NCBI GenBank assembly: GCA_030998015.1
Contig: JARWMV010000251.1
Location: forward strand, 1-64,000
Source of the DNA: Ceratorhiza oryzae-sativae
Lineage: Eukaryota; Basidiomycota; Agaricomycetes; Cantharellales; Ceratobasidiaceae
Direction of reading: 5' to 3'
DNA length: 64,000 bases
The translations under genes were made by a program, and so were the position numbers. A model generated the notes under the pieces. That model was not told the origin of the DNA. It made no database searches and saw only the letters and a list, made by a program, of their open reading frames with translations. This document shows positions 3,797-16,287 of the stretch, one piece after another (positions within the stretch are counted from its first letter, which is position 1; the number at the start of each line of letters is the position of its first letter).

Positions 3797-3896
3797 GCTG
3801 GTTAGTCTAATGGGTAGAGCACCCATTCCCTCTTGCTGATGTAAGCTCATCAATCAGAGGGCACATGTTCAACTCCCCCCTTGTCCAACTTTTTTT
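3797..3896 (+). ncRNA. tRNA-like / SINE-head sequence with pol III signals
   Basis: The sequence has a box-A-like motif (TAGTCTAATGGGTAGAGC), a box-B-like motif (GTTCAACTCCC) about 60 bases downstream, and a T-run at 3889-3896 that could terminate RNA polymerase III. Between the boxes a CCCTC/GAGGG stem encloses an oversized loop with a small GATG/CATC hairpin, as in a tRNA anticodon arm with an intron. The D-stem and acceptor stem do not pair well, so this is more likely a tRNA-derived SINE head or a decayed tRNA than a working tRNA gene. Confidence 0.3.
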
Positions 3897-4022
3897 TGAG
3901 TTATTTTGAGCAGGTTTATTGATTCTAGACATTTTTCCAAAATAAGGCATATCCCAATTTGGTGCATGATTAGTTTGGGATTTGGTGTGCTTGAAGGTGA
4001 CCTGAAGTGATTTCCAGCAATG

Positions 4023-4092
4023 TGGGTGATTTGAGTGGTTTGGGTGATTTGGGTGATTTGAAGTGATTTGAAGTGATCTACAGCTTGCCTGT
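4023..4092 (+). repeat. Degenerate GTGATTTG-type short tandem repeat
   Basis: About eight imperfect copies of an 8-10 base unit built on GTGATTTG or GAAGTGATTT. It follows the tRNA-like patch and could be the tail of the same short interspersed element. Confidence 0.5.
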
Positions 4093-7628: not shown

Positions 7629-9141
7629 AGAAAGAGAAATGTTTTGGTGTTTTTTTGGCATTTTCGAGATGAGAAACAGGAGCCTTGTAGATAGTAGACG
7701 TCGGAGAGCCTTCGTTGCTGAGAACAGATGAATTTGTTGCGAAGTTCGTCGCTCCAGATGCTTTGCTAGGATTGTCGGTCATAGTGGTGGTCGGCGTGTG
7801 ATTCGTATCCTTGTATTTACACATCACAGGAGGAAATTTTACACACACACACAGATTTCACCCAACCACCAGGTAGCCTGCCCACTACTTCGAAGGTGAT
7901 AAGAGCTCGCTATTGAACCCTATCCGAGTGACACTTGAAAAAAGGAAAACACTAATCGGTGAATCTCGATCGAGGAATGCGCAATGCCCCAGGAATTCGC
8001 CGAGGACTTAAGGCGCAGGTGAGTCACCCTCGTCAGATTATGTTTTGTTTTAGGTTTCGTAAGAGTTTTGGCCCGCGACGGGCAGTCATGCCAGACGCGC
8101 GGGTTTCGTGAATGATTGCATGACAAAACAGCTCGATACTCGAGGTTCCGAGTTGAACCTATTAGAGCCCGATATTCACGGATTTCAGCGGAGCCCGACT
8201 GTCCAGCGAATGGATAATCTATTTATAAAAATCAATATGAATAAAAGGCTCAATAGTCAAAGGGAGCACATAGACAAATCGCCGCCGGAGACCATTTAGA
8301 GCATGGATATCTTCATATGCACCATCGGGTGTAGTGCCGGGGACTGGGACAAAAACGAGTACCAAAACGCTGCCTGAGCATGATGGCGAACCGGAATAGT
8401 TGAAACGACCAAGAGTATATGCGCATCATTCTATATTCGTGCACCCGGGCAATATATCCAAAGCCACACAAATCCGGGACGTCAACATGTGTCAAGGCCT
8501 AGATGGGGGTGAATAATAGGTTGATAAGCGATGCAAAGTTTTCAAACCTTGCCATTCACGGGGATGCCCGAAGATATTCATTGATCATTGCGTTCTCACC
8601 CCTCACCGGCACCATCCTCGACGAATATATGATGTTTGAGCCGGCTTGGAACGCATGGGAATGAAATGTTTTATGGAAGAGAATAACGGTCGGAGGGCTT
8701 ACCGTGCTCTAAGATGTCTGTTTGATCCTTATAGTGACCCAGAATGCCTCCTTTCCAGTCCTCTCTCCCGCCTACCGGATTCAAGCCCCAGAAAAGTGAA
8801 TGGAAGACTTCAAAACACCCGCTGATAGACGAGATTCAACGCCGCCCCAGGTATCTGTCAGACAGAGAATTTCGCTGATGGCGGTGACAGTCAACGGACT
8901 GGGCTTGACAGGAGCATTCGACTATGGACAGCAGCTGCAGGGGGGAAAAAAGTCAGCATTCCTACCTTGTTCGACAATGCCTAAGGTTTGATCCCCTTCT
9001 GTCTCGTGGAGTGCGCCCTACCCTCTCTGAGGATAGAGGAATGAACGGGGTGATGGTGCAAACGGGGGAAAGAACGTCGGGTTGCGGAATAAGGCATGGC
9101 GCTTGAGAACTCACAAGCTTGCTAACAACGTAACGCAACAG
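7629..9141. other. Probable 5' region of the micro-exon kinase gene; upstream part empty
   Basis: No gene is supported at 7629-8790. From about 8790 onward AG and GT signals become frequent, and short open frames around 8800-9000 could be early exons of the gene that follows. I could not chain them reliably, so the translation start of the kinase gene is unresolved. Confidence 0.3.
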
Positions 9142-10029
9142 CTGGATCAAATACAACCTCGTGACACAGAGTGTGCCCCGCACCACGACAGGACGAGCGA
9201 CACTATGTCCGAAGGAGGGTGGAACTACGTCAACTTTGGGCAAATTGCGGTACGCACAGACTACGGCTGACCCTAGCCTGGTGAGACTGAGAGCTCTGAC
9301 TATGTTCTAGGAAGTGAGATGCATCATTACAACGGAAACCGGCGCTAACTGCGTCTTGCACAGGAGCATGACGAGATCAAGGGGCGAGTGAGTGTCCAGA
9401 CCCATGAGTCCGAGTGGGGATCTCATACGTGGTCCCATGTGGCCTCGTTCCGTGATTCATCAGTCCGAAATACGAGGGGAAATCGGACGATGGGTACGTT
9501 GCACATCTTTCAATCTACTGTGAAGCTAATGACACCCGGATTGGATGCTAGGTGGCAAGTTTGATTTCAGGGAGTCGCCATGAGGGCGCGCTGATCGAAA
9601 AATTAATTGTGCAATCTAGTTGGTGAGTGATCGAGTGGTTGTTTTGCAGTATCTTATTCCTGGATTAAACGCTTCACTGCAGAAGGTGCGCCAAAGTATC
9701 ACACAATGAAATTGGCTGAACATCTAACGATAAGCATCAAGCGGGTATGTGGGTCATTGAGCTGTGCAAATGGAGGAGCGCTGAACTAGCGGATACATGG
9801 TCGAAAAGCGGCATGTGAGTGGTGGTCATGGACACGTGAACGGAGTATTCACCCGAAGGTGAGTGTGAGCAGAGTATGAAAACCGCCTACAAAATTGTAA
9901 ACAATGAAACGGTGTTGTAGATGTGCTTATTTGCGAACTGCATGCATAACAAAATATAGCATGTAAGCAAGTGGTATTGGTTACTAGTACACTCTCTCAC
10001 ACCAACCCTCTCACTCTGTTGCATGTCAG
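9142..10029 (+). other. Upstream micro-exon chain of the kinase gene
   Basis: A phase-0 exon chain can be read. It starts with 9142-9249 (36 codons, containing MSEGGWNYVNFGQIA), then GAA 9311-9313, 9364-9387 (EHDEIKGR), 9464-9493 (SEIRGEIGRW), GTG 9552-9554, TTG 9620-9622, AAG 9683-9685, CGG 9742-9744, CGGCAT 9809-9814 and CAT 9960-9962. The separating introns are about 50-76 nt (the last but one 44 nt or longer), nearly all with GT donors, AG acceptors and CTAAC/CTGAC-like branch points. The donor after GTG is GCAAGT, the usual GC-AG variant. All exons are multiples of three and all are open in the same frame. The function of the peptide is unknown. Confidence 0.5.
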
Positions 10030-11120
10030 GATGTAAGTGAACAAGACACAGCCATGGCATACTCTGACCACACCCCTCTCACTCTGTTGCATGTCAGTGG
10101 GTGAGTGAACAAGACACAGCCATGGCATACTCTGACCACACCCCTCTCACTCTGTTGCATGTCAGATTGTAAGTGAACAAGACACAGCCATGGCATACTC
10201 TGACCACACCCCTCTCACTCTGTTGCATGTCAGTGGGTGAGTGAACAAGACACAGCCATGGCATACTCTGACCACACCCCTCTCACTCTGTTGCATGTCA
10301 GGCTGTGAGTGAACAAGACACAGCCATGGCATACTCTGACCACACCCCTCTCACTCTGTTGCATGTCAGCGGGTGAGTGAACAAGACACAGCCATGGCAT
10401 ACTCTGACCACACCCCTCTCACTCTGTTGCATGTCAGGCTGTGAGTGAACAAGACACAGCCATGGCATACTCTGACCACACCCCTCTCACTCTGTTGCAT
10501 GTCAGGCTGTGAGTGAACAAGACACAGCCATGGCATACTCTGACCACACCCCTCTCACTCTGTTGCATGTCAGCGGGTGAGTGAACAAGACACAGCCATG
10601 GCATACTCTGACCACACCCCTCTCACTCTGTTGCATGTCAGTGGGTGAGTGAACAAGACACAGCCATGGCATACTCTGACCACACCCCTCTCACTCTGTT
10701 GCATGTCAGGCTGTGAGTGAACAAGACACAGCCATGGCATACTCTGACCACACCCCTCTCACTCTGTTGCATGTCAGGCTGTGAGTGAACAAGACACAGC
10801 CATGGCATACTCTGACCACACCCCTCTCACTCTGTTGCATGTCAGCGGGTGAGTGAACAAGACACAGCCATGGCATACTCTGACCACACCCCTCTCACTC
10901 TGTTGCATGTCAGCTGGTGAGTGAACAAGACACAGCCATGGCATACTCTGACCACACCCCTCTCACTCTGTTGCATGTCAGGCTGTGAGTGAACAAGACA
11001 CAGCCATGGCATACTCTGACCACACCCCTCTCACTCTGTTGCATGTCAGCGGGTGAGTGAACAAGACACAGCCATGGCATACTCTGACCACACCCCTCTC
11101 ACTCTGTTGCATGTCAGGAT
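10030..11120 (+). repeat. Tandem array of 68-bp units: 65-nt intron plus one-codon exon
   Basis: Seventeen occurrences of GCATGTCAG-NNN-GTRAGTGAAC lie at an exact 68-bp spacing (NNN at 10030, 10098, and so on to 11118). Between them are sixteen near-identical 65-nt segments with every signal of a fungal intron: GTGAGT donor, CTCTGAC branch point 30 nt from the end, a pyrimidine tract and a CAG acceptor. The three bases between CAG and GT are, in order, GAT TGG ATT TGG GCT CGG GCT GCT CGG TGG GCT GCT CGG CTG GCT CGG GAT. The only other variation is GTAAGTG for GTGAGTG in units 1 and 3. In the phase of the neighbouring exons this reads DWIWARAARWAARLARD. The unit length is not a multiple of three and contains stops, so it can be coding only if spliced. 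The 17th unit is followed by a diverged 65-nt intron. Confidence 0.9.
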
Positions 11121-12285
11121 GTGAGTGAACAAAACACAGCCATGGCCATACTCTGACCACATCATCTCCACACTACCACATCAAGGAGGTATGTCACATA
11201 TCAAAATATTGATTCTCTCTTTTAACCTTCCACACTTTGCTTGCCTCCAGTTTGTGGGTCACTACCATATTAAATCCTATAATTGTAACTCATTACAGAT
11301 CCTTGCCCACCCTGCCTTCTAGAATGTGAGTGTTATCTAGGTTCTACCAATTTCTCTGAGCTTCTCATTCAATCTGGGCAAATAAAGCATGTATGTCCAC
11401 AATGTATGCATCTGACCAGACAGCCTGCAGCTGAATTTCTCTCAAGAAACCTGTAGGCACAGATCTTTGCAACCCAATCATTCTCACTTGGCCATTCACA
11501 CTTTACTTTCTATAATAGGTAGTGAGTGTAACACTTTTCTTACTCTTGTTCCTAATCTGCCATATCTATTCACACGCCTGTAGTGTCAGTAGGGGCTAAG
11601 GTCAGAATATCGACTCATGCCTCTACCTTGTTTCCCCTGCTCTCGTTCCTGCCACTCATCGCTTGGCAGGTAAGTCTTCTTCTCATTCTCATAGTACCCC
11701 TCGTGGTCCTCTTGTCCCTGATGCTTATTGTTGCTTCGCCTCACTGAATCCAGGTGGTTCGGATCATCCATCCACATGCATCAATCCCTAAACTAATTTC
11801 TGATAGACAGTGAGTACTCTATCGGCAATAGCTGCTTTCTAATCACGTCCTGACAGTATGTTGCCCTAGCTGGTGCGCCAAATGCCACTACAAATCGGTT
11901 GCACCTCTGATTGCGACCATTTATGAAGGCCGTAAGTAGATATCTTATCGCCATTTGACAGTCTCGTATCTCGGCGCACTAGGAGGTATGTGCGCTCAAC
12001 CCCCTCATGCTCCCACGCTCTAACCCACGTCTCACAATCTATTCAGATCGTGAGTACTCTTCTTGTCACACAGGTTTCACGTTGACATGCCTTGGCGCGC
12101 AGGAAGTAAGTACATAACGGTTATGTAGAATGAGACTCTTACCAGCCTACCATGCGCGTACATAGGTGAGTTTTAGATTTCACTCAAAGTATACCGCTTA
12201 AGTGTCTGGGGAACGAACGACAGGCAGTAAGATTTTATTAGTTTGCCTTCCATACACGATCCTGAGGCGTGCTCTTCCTTCACAG
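11121..12285 (+). other. Downstream micro-exon chain of the kinase gene
   Basis: The AG|NNN|GT pattern continues with unrelated introns of about 50-85 nt. Three-base exons are GAG 11186, TTT 11251, AAT 11323, CAT 11388, GTA 11519, ACA 11807, GAG 11983, ATC 12047, GAA 12103 and GCA 12224; AAACCT sits at 11447. Two larger exons fit: 11606-11669 (starting NIDSCLYLVSPALV) and 11857-11931 (open in one frame only, containing CAKCHYKSVAPLIATIYEG). Phase bookkeeping leaves one base over before the kinase exon. An exon 12074-12105 ending in that GAA would repair it but would require a 24-nt intron. An assembly indel is another explanation. Exact exon choice is therefore uncertain although the pattern is clear. 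Confidence 0.5.
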
Positions 12286-13721
12286 TTCTTTCATGAACAC
12301 CCTGGCCAGAAGAAACCAATCCATATCAACGCCGATACAGTAGGGTTACTGTATATTTCTTCGAAATGATTAACCTGATTTTTATCCATCGCTAATAGCC
12401 ACTTTCGACGGTCGTTCATTACCTAGCTACCCACTCACAGATTGCTGACCTCACAGAGATTCTGCCTAGCTCAGCGAGGCCCATACCTCCAGCCGTCGCA
12501 CGTACCGCTCTGTCCGACGTTTACTCCATCATGATCTCTGACGAGCGGCAAGTGGCAGTCAAGTGTCTCAGGCAACTCGACAACAAGGAAGTGATAGTAC
12601 GTACAACTAGTATCACATACGCCTACCCGGTACTATTTTACTTCTACTTGCACACAGCGCACTGCTCGTGAACTGAACGTTTGGTCAAAGATGAAGCATA
12701 GGAACATACTCGCACTCGATGGTCTAGCGATATTTCAGAACTGTCTGGCAATGGTATCTCCGTGGATGGCATATGGCAGCGTGTGCGAGGTACTTCGGAA
12801 GTGGCCGGATAGGAAGCGGTTCCCTATGGTATGGACACGAGCTCCATGCCCAATCAGCCTAGCAGCATTACGTTGACCACACTCTAGTGTCTACAACTGG
12901 CTCAGGCGATCACGTACCTGCATGGAGGGAATGTAGTAGGTTTCTATTGTCTCGCTTCACGCACCGTTGTTCCTCACGCAAAACTCGTCGAGGTTCATGG
13001 TGACATCAAAGGAGTGGGTAACGCGTGATACGATAACCGTCGGACCGGTAACACAGCGCGAACAGGCTAACCTTCTTGTGGACGGAGACGGCACGCTCAA
13101 GCTTACGGACTTTGGGCTCGCAATCATGCACGACAAGGTGTTGGAGTTTTCTCAGACCGATCCAGGAGGAGGCACGTTGCGCTGGATGGTGGGTTTAACT
13201 CGCGCAGGTACCTACGACGAGCTCAATTTTGTGCATGCGGACTCAGGCGCCAGAGCTTCATCAAGAGAAGGCTCAACGATCACGCGAGGCTGACATATAT
13301 GCGATGGGAATGGTGAGCCATTCCGGATTAGTGGCCAACATCTCCTCTGACGTGTATACAACACAATCAGACGATGTTTGTGAGAGTGTATTCGAGTGTC
13401 GCTTGTCTCAAGCTAAATCTGATGCAGGAGATTATTACGGGGGAACTTCCATTCAAGGAGATCGCCGCAGTGCACCGACTTACCGTGGAGGTCGTAGACA
13501 AACGTCGAGTCCCTCAGGTACCTACACTCGAAGGAGACACAGCCTCGCCAACAGCTACGGTTATGCTTGGTGTACTGCGGTGGTGTTGGAGCTATGAGCC
13601 GAGCGCGCGGCCAACTGCTCGGCGGGTTGCTCTGGTGGTAAGAACTACTGGCAATGGATCGCAAATTCTCTAAATGTCTATTTATCCGGTGGAATAGGTT
13701 GAGGGTATTACGCCCGAGTAG
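12286..13721 (+). CDS. TKL-like protein kinase catalytic region
   Basis: A Ser/Thr or dual-specificity kinase domain is rebuilt from exons 12286-12339, 12399-12596, 12658-12828, 12888-12935, 12993-13013, 13066-13188, 13247-13312, 13371-13379, 13427-13637 and 13698-13721. Visible motifs are VAVK (ATP-binding lysine), KHRNIL in the alpha-C region, YLH then VHGDIKGANLL as catalytic loop (HGD in place of HRD, common in fungal TKL kinases), DFGLA, APELHQ, DIYAMGM-TMF-EIITGELPF and a C-lobe ending CWSYEPSARPTARRVALV. The Gly-rich loop is degenerate (ARTALSDVYS). A 9-nt exon encodes TMF and a 21-nt exon encodes VHGDIKG. The N-terminal part is the micro-exon chain upstream. The substrate is unknown; such kinases are numerous in Agaricomycetes. 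Confidence 0.85.
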
Positions 13722-14691: not shown

Positions 14692-16287
14692 ATGGTCAGA
14701 CATATTCAGGTCGGCCTGCTGGCTGCATTCGCCGCACCCGCCATGTCCATGACGAGCTATCCAAACTACTTTTTCGTGCCAGAGGACGTGCTTGGCTCGA
14801 GCTGGGTCGCCAACGCCAAGTGGGCGCAGGCCAACACGATTGTGGATGCCGAGTTTGTTTCTGCCCAAGGGCCTTGGTGTAAGTCCATCCGTGTTGGTTT
14901 ATTTTCCGACTTGCAAATGCTGATATGTATGTCTAGCTGTAACATCGAAGCCCATCCTTCCGCCGACCAACAGTTCCCAGTCAGTCGAGTCGGATGTCAC
15001 TTCTTGAATCGAACGCTGATGTTGTTGTGAAGTGACTACCTGAGTCTGCGCCCTTACTTCTGGCCCGACTGCTCAAATGTTGGAAATACCACCGCACTCA
15101 CGGATCAACAGAGTGAGTCTCGGCTATCTCCCTAGCTGACCAGCAGCTAATCGGTTCGCCCAGTTTACACGATGTGCAATTATACCCGACGTGATGGCGA
15201 GTTCAACCCCGATGCTCGCATGGTCAACGACACTGGCGCATTCCAAGCCCTGAGCGACAGCGTATTCTACAACGCCTTAGCCTGGTCGTACACCAAGGAC
15301 TCGAGGTACTCGTCCAACATCGCCAACCAGATCTACACCTGGTTCCTGAACCCCGATACATTCATGAACGCGAACCTGGTCTACGCCCAGCTGTTGCGAG
15401 GACCAGGAGTGCAACAAGGCAGTCATACGGGTATTCTCGACTTGAAGGGCATGGCCAAGATCACGTCGGGTATCATGACGCTGCGAAAGGGTCAAGCTCC
15501 CGAGTGGACTCAGCTGCTGGACGACGGGCTCAATGCGTGGGTCAAGGAATATCTTCGGTGGTTGACGACCAACAGCATGTCGTTGGAAGAAAAGGCTGCG
15601 CCCAAGTTTGTTCCCTCTCGTTTTGACATCCGTAAACTAACACTCACTTGGCATTCAGCAACCACGGAAGCTACTGGTTCAACCAAGTGGCGTCGCTCCA
15701 GCTCTTGGTCGGAGACACCGCCGCAGCCAAAGCGACGGTTGAAGAGTTCTTCGCCGGGATCTACCAAAACCAAATCGCCGCTAACGGACCAGCCGCTCGA
15801 GACTGACCGCACACGTCCATACCACTACCGGGCGTACAACCTGATGGCGATGGTCATCAATGCCAAGATCGGTGCCTATGTCGGGATCACCGACGCCTGG
15901 AACCGCACGACCAAGTCCGGCGCGGGGATCCAACAGGCGTGCGATTACGCCATGACGATTGCGCCGACGGGTGAAGAGGACTATACGCTCGAGTTGTTTC
16001 CTCCGTTGGCGGCTGTGGCGAGCGTGTACGGTGATCCGGACGGCAAGTACGCCAAGTGGTTGGCGAGCAAGGCCCCGGATTATCCTTCGAATGCGTGGTA
16101 TATGCTCTCGCCTGGCCTGAGTGATTCCGGGTTGACGATGCCGACGACGACTGCGAGCGCCGGTACGCCTGGATCCACTGGTGGATCTATCGGCAACACG
16201 AGCAATAACGGCGCGATCGGGCTCGAGGCAGGCAGTGTGTTGAGGGTCTTGATCGCCGCGGGGGCGGTGCTCGTTTCGATAATTTAA
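14692..16287 (+). CDS. Secreted, GPI-type alginate lyase-domain protein
   Basis: The product would be an extracellular polysaccharide lyase of the alginate-lyase (alpha/alpha-barrel) type. It begins with a signal peptide (MVRHIQVGLLAAFAAPAMS). Family signatures follow: HDYLSLRPYFWPDC, RRDGEFNPDAR, NNHGSYWFNQVASLQLLVGD, then QPLETDRTRPYHYRAYNL. It ends in a Ser/Thr/Gly-rich linker and a hydrophobic tail typical of a GPI anchor signal. Introns lie near 14879-14935, 14981-15033, 15113-15163 and 15609-15658, all GT-AG. Between the QNQIAANG and QPLETDRTR parts (about 15782-15790) the frame must shift by one base, so the copy is either broken or carries an assembly indel. Its true substrate in a soil fungus is unknown. 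Confidence 0.75.

Follow-up and report, generated by a model that had tools for sequence, protein, structure and literature searches.

Can part of a protein be spelled out at one codon per exon, with a tandem repeat supplying both the codons and the introns between them? The question is raised by an array in the window, by which we mean the whole analysed stretch of 64,000 nucleotides (C251:1-64000), for which the original prediction proposed that seventeen units at an exact 68-bp pitch each consist of a near-invariant 65-nt intron and a single triplet read in the phase of the flanking exons. The genome searched for related sequences comprises 48.8 Mb in 253 contigs.

Results

The 68-bp unit

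The array (10006..11161, + strand, the interval also recovered by Tandem Repeats Finder) has a 68-bp period made up of a 65-nt intron and one variable codon. CTCTGTTGCATGTCAG occurs in 17 copies between 10014 and 11102, with all 16 spacings exactly 68 bp, and the 65-base intron stretch holds a donor, a branch-like CTGAC and an acceptor. Seventeen predicted one-codon exons fall at 10030 + 68n (n = 0 to 16; 10030..11120, + strand) and would encode the peptide DWIWARAARWAARLARD. Read 5' to 3' after each AG, the triplets are GAT TGG ATT TGG GCT CGG GCT GCT CGG and, from the 10th to the 17th, TGG GCT GCT CGG CTG GCT CGG GAT (GCT six times, CGG four, TGG three, GAT two, ATT and CTG once each). The donors are GTGAGT in 15 of the 17 units and GTAAGT in two, and across the 16 complete intron copies one of 65 columns varies, donor position +3, with A in two copies. 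Pairwise diversity is 0.647 per triplet base against 0.0036 per intron base, a 180-fold ratio, so that the exact pitch, the triplet counts and the confinement of variation to the triplet were all borne out. The proposed phase of DWIWARAARWAARLARD, phase 0, likewise fits, as 7/7 introns in the kinase part of the same gene model are phase 0. After the 17th triplet comes a diverged intron ending in AAG, an unusual acceptor for the next predicted exon, GAG at 11186; the array itself stands as described, and the flanking GAG exon is doubtful. RNA folding of the unit is no better than that of shuffled sequences (z +1.38), and Rfam gives no match within the window at gathering scores.

The gene model around the array

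A position-weight gene model was trained on 33 introns, 26 from a repeat-free run on contig C39 described below and seven from the window kinase part; the recovery of the C39 run by the model is not independent, since that run sat in the training set, and the 5' exons were absent from it. All exons that follow are on the + strand. With a predicted start codon, the first coding exon, MSEGGWNYVNFGQIA, is placed at 9205..9249, an alternative start at 8924 scoring nearly as well (152.2 vs 152.5). Next come a predicted one-codon exon GAA (E, 9311..9313; GAA in all four copies of the family; the C39 family encodes E there as well, as GAG), a 24-nt exon EHDEIKGR (9364..9387) and a 30-nt exon SEIRGEIGRW (9464..9493), the last two having 24-nt and 30-nt counterparts in the C39 family, GHESVKGN and RNIRPILGEW. 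Further predicted one-codon exons before the array are TTG (L, 9620..9622; TAT in L009 and L010), AAG (K, 9683..9685) and CGG (R, 9742..9744), both from the model and from copy comparison, and CAT (H, 9960..9962; CCT in the three other copies). Beyond the array the model predicts TTT (11251..11253), AAT (11323..11325; AAC, synonymous, in L009), ACA (11807..11809), CTG (11870..11872), GCC (11929..11931), GAG (11983..11985), ATC (12047..12049), GAA (12103..12105) and GCA (12224..12226, also in the chain search), with two possible one-codon exons, GAG (11186..11188), which may be part of a longer intron, and CAT (11388..11390), which has a weak acceptor. A 54-nt exon FFHEHPGQKKPIHINADT (12286..12339) closes this part; its counterparts are FFREHPDLSIVVNVTSDTP in the Ceratobasidium protein P0009 (aligned by eye) and FLRTHPVYRKPIHIPSNL, the 54-nt exon that precedes the kinase in C39. 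As modelled up to 12339, 33 of the 40 exons are one-codon exons, some of them doubtful. The model pieces at 9790-9858, 11447-11452 and 11519-11584 were not trusted and were left out.

The models of the window and C39 genes agree at the 5' side, each having a one-codon E, a 24-nt exon, a 30-nt exon and then L. Over these 20 residues, from the E to the L, nine are identical, and none of 20,000 shuffles was as good. Scanned across 16 loci (C61 and C234 lying outside the scan), the block motif is present in six, which belong without exception to the window and C39 families, and is absent from C24, C250 and C66. The model of L009 stopped short of the 5' exons, though L009 carries the 24/30-nt block. 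At the 3' end of the run the resemblance is weak, pairing E-I-E-A of the window with E-M-E-D of C39 before the F exon (p 0.03), and the window and C250 show no alignment beyond chance (p 0.33); the window string in these alignments held two doubtful codons. Searches for protein relatives of the predicted N-termini returned 17 candidates for the window, none at E 10, and one for C39, none at E 1. As the first predicted exon (9205-9249) carries several amino acid differences among copies and the following 24-nt exon is unchanged, the N-terminus of the window gene may evolve fast outside the array too.

The kinase part

A protein kinase domain follows in eight exons (12399..13637, + strand, modelled to 13637), all introns being phase 0. 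The translation matches PF00069 (E 1.2e-39) and PF07714 (E 1.5e-38); the Pfam scan returned three kinase-type families, with ABC1 below its cut-off. It contains VAVK, HGDIKG..N, DFG and APE, which we take to be the catalytic motifs of protein kinases. The best 20 of 1278 protein matches show 53-67% identity, and among these 20 all 16 with a named source come from Ceratobasidium. The nearest relatives of the kinase belong to the Ceratobasidiaceae; the fungus is probably Rhizoctonia-like. Each of the four window-family copies has an open kinase frame of 282 codons; 59/846 exon columns vary among them vs 48/393 intron columns, and the variable codons comprise 33 amino-acid-changing and 16 silent ones. 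The C39 kinase, whose exons were placed by homology, also has eight exons, seven of them equal in length to those of the window and the first measuring 195 nt vs 198 nt in the window. One C39 exon border departs from the window gene: at about 7058 in L016 (C39), GA stands after the kinase exon that ends in RWM, in place of the GT donor seen in the window.

A search with one kinase exon gave 87 matching places genome-wide; upstream regions were inspected at 17 of them, a non-random choice. Runs of one-codon exons lie upstream of the kinase at four window-family loci, four C39-family loci and C250, and an array lies upstream at C66; seven of the 17 (L017, L020, L021 and L023-L026) have no chain of four or more 3-nt exons upstream.

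Sister arrays and recombination

The 68-bp unit has at least 74 matches in the genome, in four places only: the window and three sister arrays found by sequence search, at C47:33095-35115, C12:43888-44992 and C12:96183-96874. The four arrays have the intron in common and differ in the number and order of their codons. Among 63 complete units 49 introns are identical, and 11 kinds of triplet occur; the codon/intron diversity ratios of the four arrays are 180, 159, 58 and 17. The flanks match downstream to the edge of the compared stretch (3.8 kb) and upstream over 1.1 to 4.6 kb, and the main matching pieces of window and sister copies are 92.7-98.0% identical, array parts included. The L010 array has one odd unit. 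In L009, at about 3840-4010, an insert with long inverted ends, resembling a small inverted-repeat transposon, sits in the donor of one array unit.

Outside the arrays, 55 of 1213 columns vary among the four copies across 11186-12398, and the sole change within the one-codon exons of that stretch is the silent AAT/AAC. The upstream one-codon exons change between copies as TTG/TAT, CGG/CGA/CAG and CAT/CCT, and in the 5' part as a whole exons are more variable than introns (15/114 vs 39/429 bases).

The relationships of the copies change along the locus. Between the window and L011, divergence is 1.0-1.6% over the 1 kb that precedes the array and 3-8% at more than 250 bp past it; between L009 and L010 it is 1.4% at 500-1000 bp upstream and 7.6% in the 250 bp adjoining the array, and upstream the two group together only beyond 250 bp. 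In the first 250 bp downstream of the array differences are 0-1.2% in 6/6 copy pairs. Copy groupings thus shift across the array, the introns being common to the copies, and this regrouping of the flanks lends support to a putative recombination step. The order of the codons is near random: in 18 tests the only excess of repeated codon words over shuffled orders was in L010 (p 0.004-0.007) and, with words of two codons, in the window (p 0.026). As repeated words rarely exceed chance, duplication blocks are mostly not visible, and block duplication as a visible source of codon order is mostly unsupported. We read the near-random order as a sign that units may frequently be exchanged; it would also be compatible with faster change of the triplet itself.

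Two further array designs

Two arrays of unrelated sequence show the same pattern. One, located through the neighbouring 3-nt exon pattern, lies at C24:109483-114372 and combines a 59-nt intron with triplets that are mostly GAA, CGA, GCA, TTC and CTC. The other, found by reading upstream of another kinase exon, lies at C250:20667-24169 and C66:68764-71517 and combines a 104-nt intron with a variable triplet (CTC, CGA, GGA, TAT, GAA and TTT among others); this 104-nt unit has at least 59 genome matches, all in the two arrays. Counting in-register units and excluding those with zero bases between sites, the codon/intron diversity ratio is 22 in C24, where 61 of 78 sites give in-register units, and 60 in C250, where 19 of 32 do. 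The remaining units of C24, C250 and C66, many of them in the C66 array, have 0-2 bases between sites or other irregularities, and two C24 units that read TGA or TAG are among these out-of-register units, for which decay or errors of assembly may account. Downstream of the C24 array lie kinase-like exons, read by eye, whose assembled sequence holds an in-frame stop. The flanks of C250 and C66 differ at 3/982 and 14/1764 bases, but the two arrays carry different codon strings. Before its FLSKHP exon C250 has, in addition, a shorter run, GCT ATT GAC GCT GCT GTG CAT.

In the C250 array (L022/L027) in-register TAT and TTT codons pair with CTCAG acceptors and GTACGT donors, and the other codons with CTTAG acceptors and GTGCGT donors; codon type tracks the acceptor and donor variant, and unit types therefore carry linked flanks.

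One-codon runs without a repeat

Any chance motif recurs in each unit of a perfect repeat, so the length of an array chain alone proves nothing, and the argument for one-codon exons is carried by the runs that are not repeats. The pattern YAG-NNN-GTRAGT-N35-65-YAG-NNN-GTRAGT was counted genome-wide with a reversed-sequence control: paired 3-nt exons occur 151 times vs four in the control, paired 4-nt exons once and paired 6-nt exons not at all. Most of the 151 pairs are array units, and 33 lie outside arrays: 28 in four near-identical copies of the C39 family (seven each), four in the window family (one each) and one in C23. With each family counted once, there are about nine non-array pairs, seven of them in one gene.

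In C39 and its copies C15, C61 and C234 the chain search finds 30 3-nt exons and no repeat. The run falls into pieces of 20 and 10 in all four copies at a maximum intron of 130 nt and, in C39, forms one chain at 145 nt. The C39 introns measure 47-139 nt and differ in sequence, with donors including GTGAGT (7), GTAAGT (7) and GTAAGC (5) and TAG (21) and CAG (8) acceptors; a branch motif is present in 15/29 of them vs 10.5 in shuffled introns, a marginal difference (p 0.06). As modelled up to the kinase, 31 of 35 C39 exons are one-codon exons. The order of the run is identical in 4/4 copies, and over a 2.6-kb alignment 1/201 exon bases and 25 other columns vary, too few variable sites for these copies to reveal constraint.

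At length 3, a chain scan of 15 loci (167,549 bases, exon lengths 0 to 12) yielded 20 places with chains of at least four exons. Chains at other lengths (1 and 10, also 6) occur only inside perfect repeats; coincidental ones, with spacings of 1, 6 and 10, lie on the opposite strand, and reversed controls also show such chains. The proposal that the unit is an intron plus one codon is supported by the three sister arrays and two unrelated arrays with the same pattern, and by a repeat-free family with some 30 consecutive 3-nt exons between differing introns.

Splice signals and stop codons

Donors in all three array designs score no lower than the 95th percentile among all GT. Of the acceptors, that of the window array, at -0.3 bits, is weaker than each of the 33 training acceptors and ranks at the 33rd percentile of all AG (trained on the C39 run only, the model gives it 0.5, within the 0.1-5.2 of the kinase introns), those of C250 are at the 66th and 71st percentiles, at the bottom of the training set, and that of C24 is strong (98.9th percentile). 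With acceptors this weak in the window and C250 arrays, some codons may well be skipped, which would always leave the frame intact. The 89 triplets counted as independent contain no stop (chance 0.014-0.018); in this set each array kind was counted once per triplet type and a few doubtful exons were included. An excess of amino-acid-changing over silent variation among the triplets was not demonstrated.

Discussion

Based on the sequence comparisons we propose that the array is spliced, that every segment contributes a single codon to the N-terminal region of a kinase, and that the product carries a fast-changing peptide with a likely role in recognition; we put the probability of this full explanation at roughly 0.7. 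Of the readings of the sequence, real single-codon exons are much the strongest, and they probably form a hypervariable N-terminal kinase segment whose introns are homogenised by recombination. As the codons are diverse and the introns near-identical, the codons are likely kept diverse by selection. That the variable peptide serves recognition, suggested by analogy with other systems, is likely too, and is the least certain step.

Mechanistically, the array would have originated by tandem duplication of one member of an older run of one-codon exons together with its intron. Through unequal crossing-over and conversion between identical introns, codons would then be gained, lost and reordered and the introns held uniform, and selection for peptide diversity would leave the codons different amid homogenised surroundings. 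The spliceosome would remove each intron by pairing neighbouring sites, which is usual for short fungal introns, and skipping of any array exon would keep the frame, since each exon is one whole codon. The variable peptide would set what the kinase meets, in the manner of hypervariable repeat positions in fungal self/non-self receptors. A bolder extension, which we hold tentatively and consider less than even odds, is that the locus is a codon-shuffling device, with a specificity peptide carried at one codon per exon and edited both by DNA crossing-over and by in-frame skipping, and built on at least three unrelated intron units. If so, the identical introns would be recombination handles through which a peptide is edited codon by codon, and, with each of the 17 exons open to in-frame skipping, a single gene could yield as many as 2^17 versions of the peptide.

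Several other accounts bear on the same data. The stretch from 9963 to 11185 could be removed as one intron, at once or stepwise, so that the triplets miss most mRNAs; the weak array acceptors fit this, and any donor could pair with any later acceptor. We find it rather unlikely, as nothing would then hold the triplets diverse and stop-free, as the 3-nt spacing is length-specific genome-wide (151 vs 1 for 4-nt and 0 for 6-nt), and as the C39 family shows the one-codon layout without a repeat. Moreover, the known kind of stepping-stone site, as described in the accessible part of PMC13149111, has AG|GT with zero bases between, whereas three bases separate the sites in 17/17 units. Recursive splice sites in the strict sense, AG|GT with zero bases in very long introns, were rejected on the same three-base gap and on the 1.2-kb size of the region. 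Introns might instead have been inserted repeatedly after each codon of an ordinary exon and homogenised later, with no tandem duplication. The C39 introns all differ, as such a history would allow, and some relatives seem, by eye, to have one extra residue joined to the FF exon; against it, the array ends retain partial unit homology (matches at 9994 and 11121), as tandem duplication leaves, copy number and codon order differ between copies despite few flank differences, and no array-intron copies were found outside arrays, which makes this history quite unlikely. An introner-type spread is rejected on the same distribution, intron copies having been found only in arrays (at least 74 in four, at least 59 in two).

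It is also conceivable that the genes are decaying, or that the array is a former coding part drifting as a minisatellite, and the out-of-register units of C24, C250 and C66, the inverted-end insert in one L009 unit and the stop in the C24 kinase-like exon all point that way. Drift would alter the 65 intron bases too, however, where the diversity ratio is 17 to 180, and the window-family kinase is open at full length in every copy; we judge decay distinctly improbable. A neutral minisatellite that holds splice-like sequence by chance has the perfect tandem period in its favour, as chance motifs recur in perfect repeats. It is barely credible given three unrelated arrays with a three-base gap in their in-register units, non-repeated runs besides, and matching gene models in two families; changes are not spread over the unit in any of six arrays (ratio 17-180), and chance is rejected as the source on the non-repeated runs together with the second and third arrays. 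Real single-codon exons thus remain the reading that we prefer.

The original prediction knew of no described gene part built from repeated one-codon exons. A literature search of titles and abstract openings, including few subscription papers, turned up neither a gene that contains successive one-codon exons nor an array of intron-plus-codon units, and within that scope the statement stands for repeated one-codon exons; it does not extend to isolated 3-nt exons and micro-exon genes, which are known. TAL effector repeats, which are bacterial, 34 residues long with two variable and free of introns, likewise combine a near-invariant repeat with a hypervariable part that carries information, but there the repeat is protein, whereas the window array is mostly intron. 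In venom phospholipase and conotoxin genes exons diverge faster than introns, and conserved introns surround hypervariable coding parts as they do here; those exons are of ordinary size and lack a tandem intron-codon array.

Closer in layout are the schistosome micro-exon genes, in which, according to the accessible text of PMC10526429, exon sizes vary and introns reach 5 kbp. The genes described here share with them a coding region largely of very short exons (33/40 in the window to 12339, 31/35 in C39) and differ in having short introns (47-139 nt in C39, 65 nt in the window array), exons that are mostly one codon where those of the micro-exon genes vary in size, an array that repeats one intron-codon unit in which the codon alone changes, and a predicted kinase rather than, as that text has it, a secreted product. 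Among fungi, very short exons, annotated or spliced, are reported in the available portions of papers on Dactylellina lipS (two 3-nt exons, PMC5639578), Phlebia radiata (PMC6540522) and Xlr2 (a microexon, PMC11121469); these are described there as single exons, whereas here runs of 10 to about 78 are formed, with a repeated unit. The 3-bp micro-exon of Drosophila homothorax, alternatively spliced according to the part of PMC7392893 available, is likewise exactly one codon, but is one exon in one gene.

For the mode of evolution the nearest parallel is offered by the hypervariable repeats of fungal NLR proteins, such as the WD repeats of HET-D and HET-R, which, in the available part of PMC4986451, evolve under positive selection and are reshuffled both inside one gene and among members of a family. 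Both systems have near-identical repeats with diversity at few amino acid positions; in the fungal NLRs so described the repeat is a protein module, whereas in the window it is mostly intron and only the variable residue would be kept in the predicted protein. The 68-bp unit, not being a multiple of three, encodes no WD, ANK or TPR module, and the scanned kinase part matched kinase-type families and no nucleotide-binding domain.

If spliced as predicted, the array of one-codon exons would be an extreme form of gene organisation, with long protein stretches encoded at one codon per exon. Genes of this kind would easily escape gene finders, and in them the introns, not the exons, would be the conserved repeat. 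They would be a test of how the spliceosome copes with dozens of neighbouring sites that lie three bases apart, would give fungi a frame-safe route to diversify a signalling protein, and would bear on how hypervariable recognition may evolve without folded repeat modules. The system also permits a direct test of conserved introns as recombination handles.

Two further features of the window lie outside the gene. A short 9-bp tandem repeat is found at 4023-4077, and an open frame with an alginate lyase match (15151-16287, + strand; PF05426, E 2.3e-38) lies downstream of the kinase gene.
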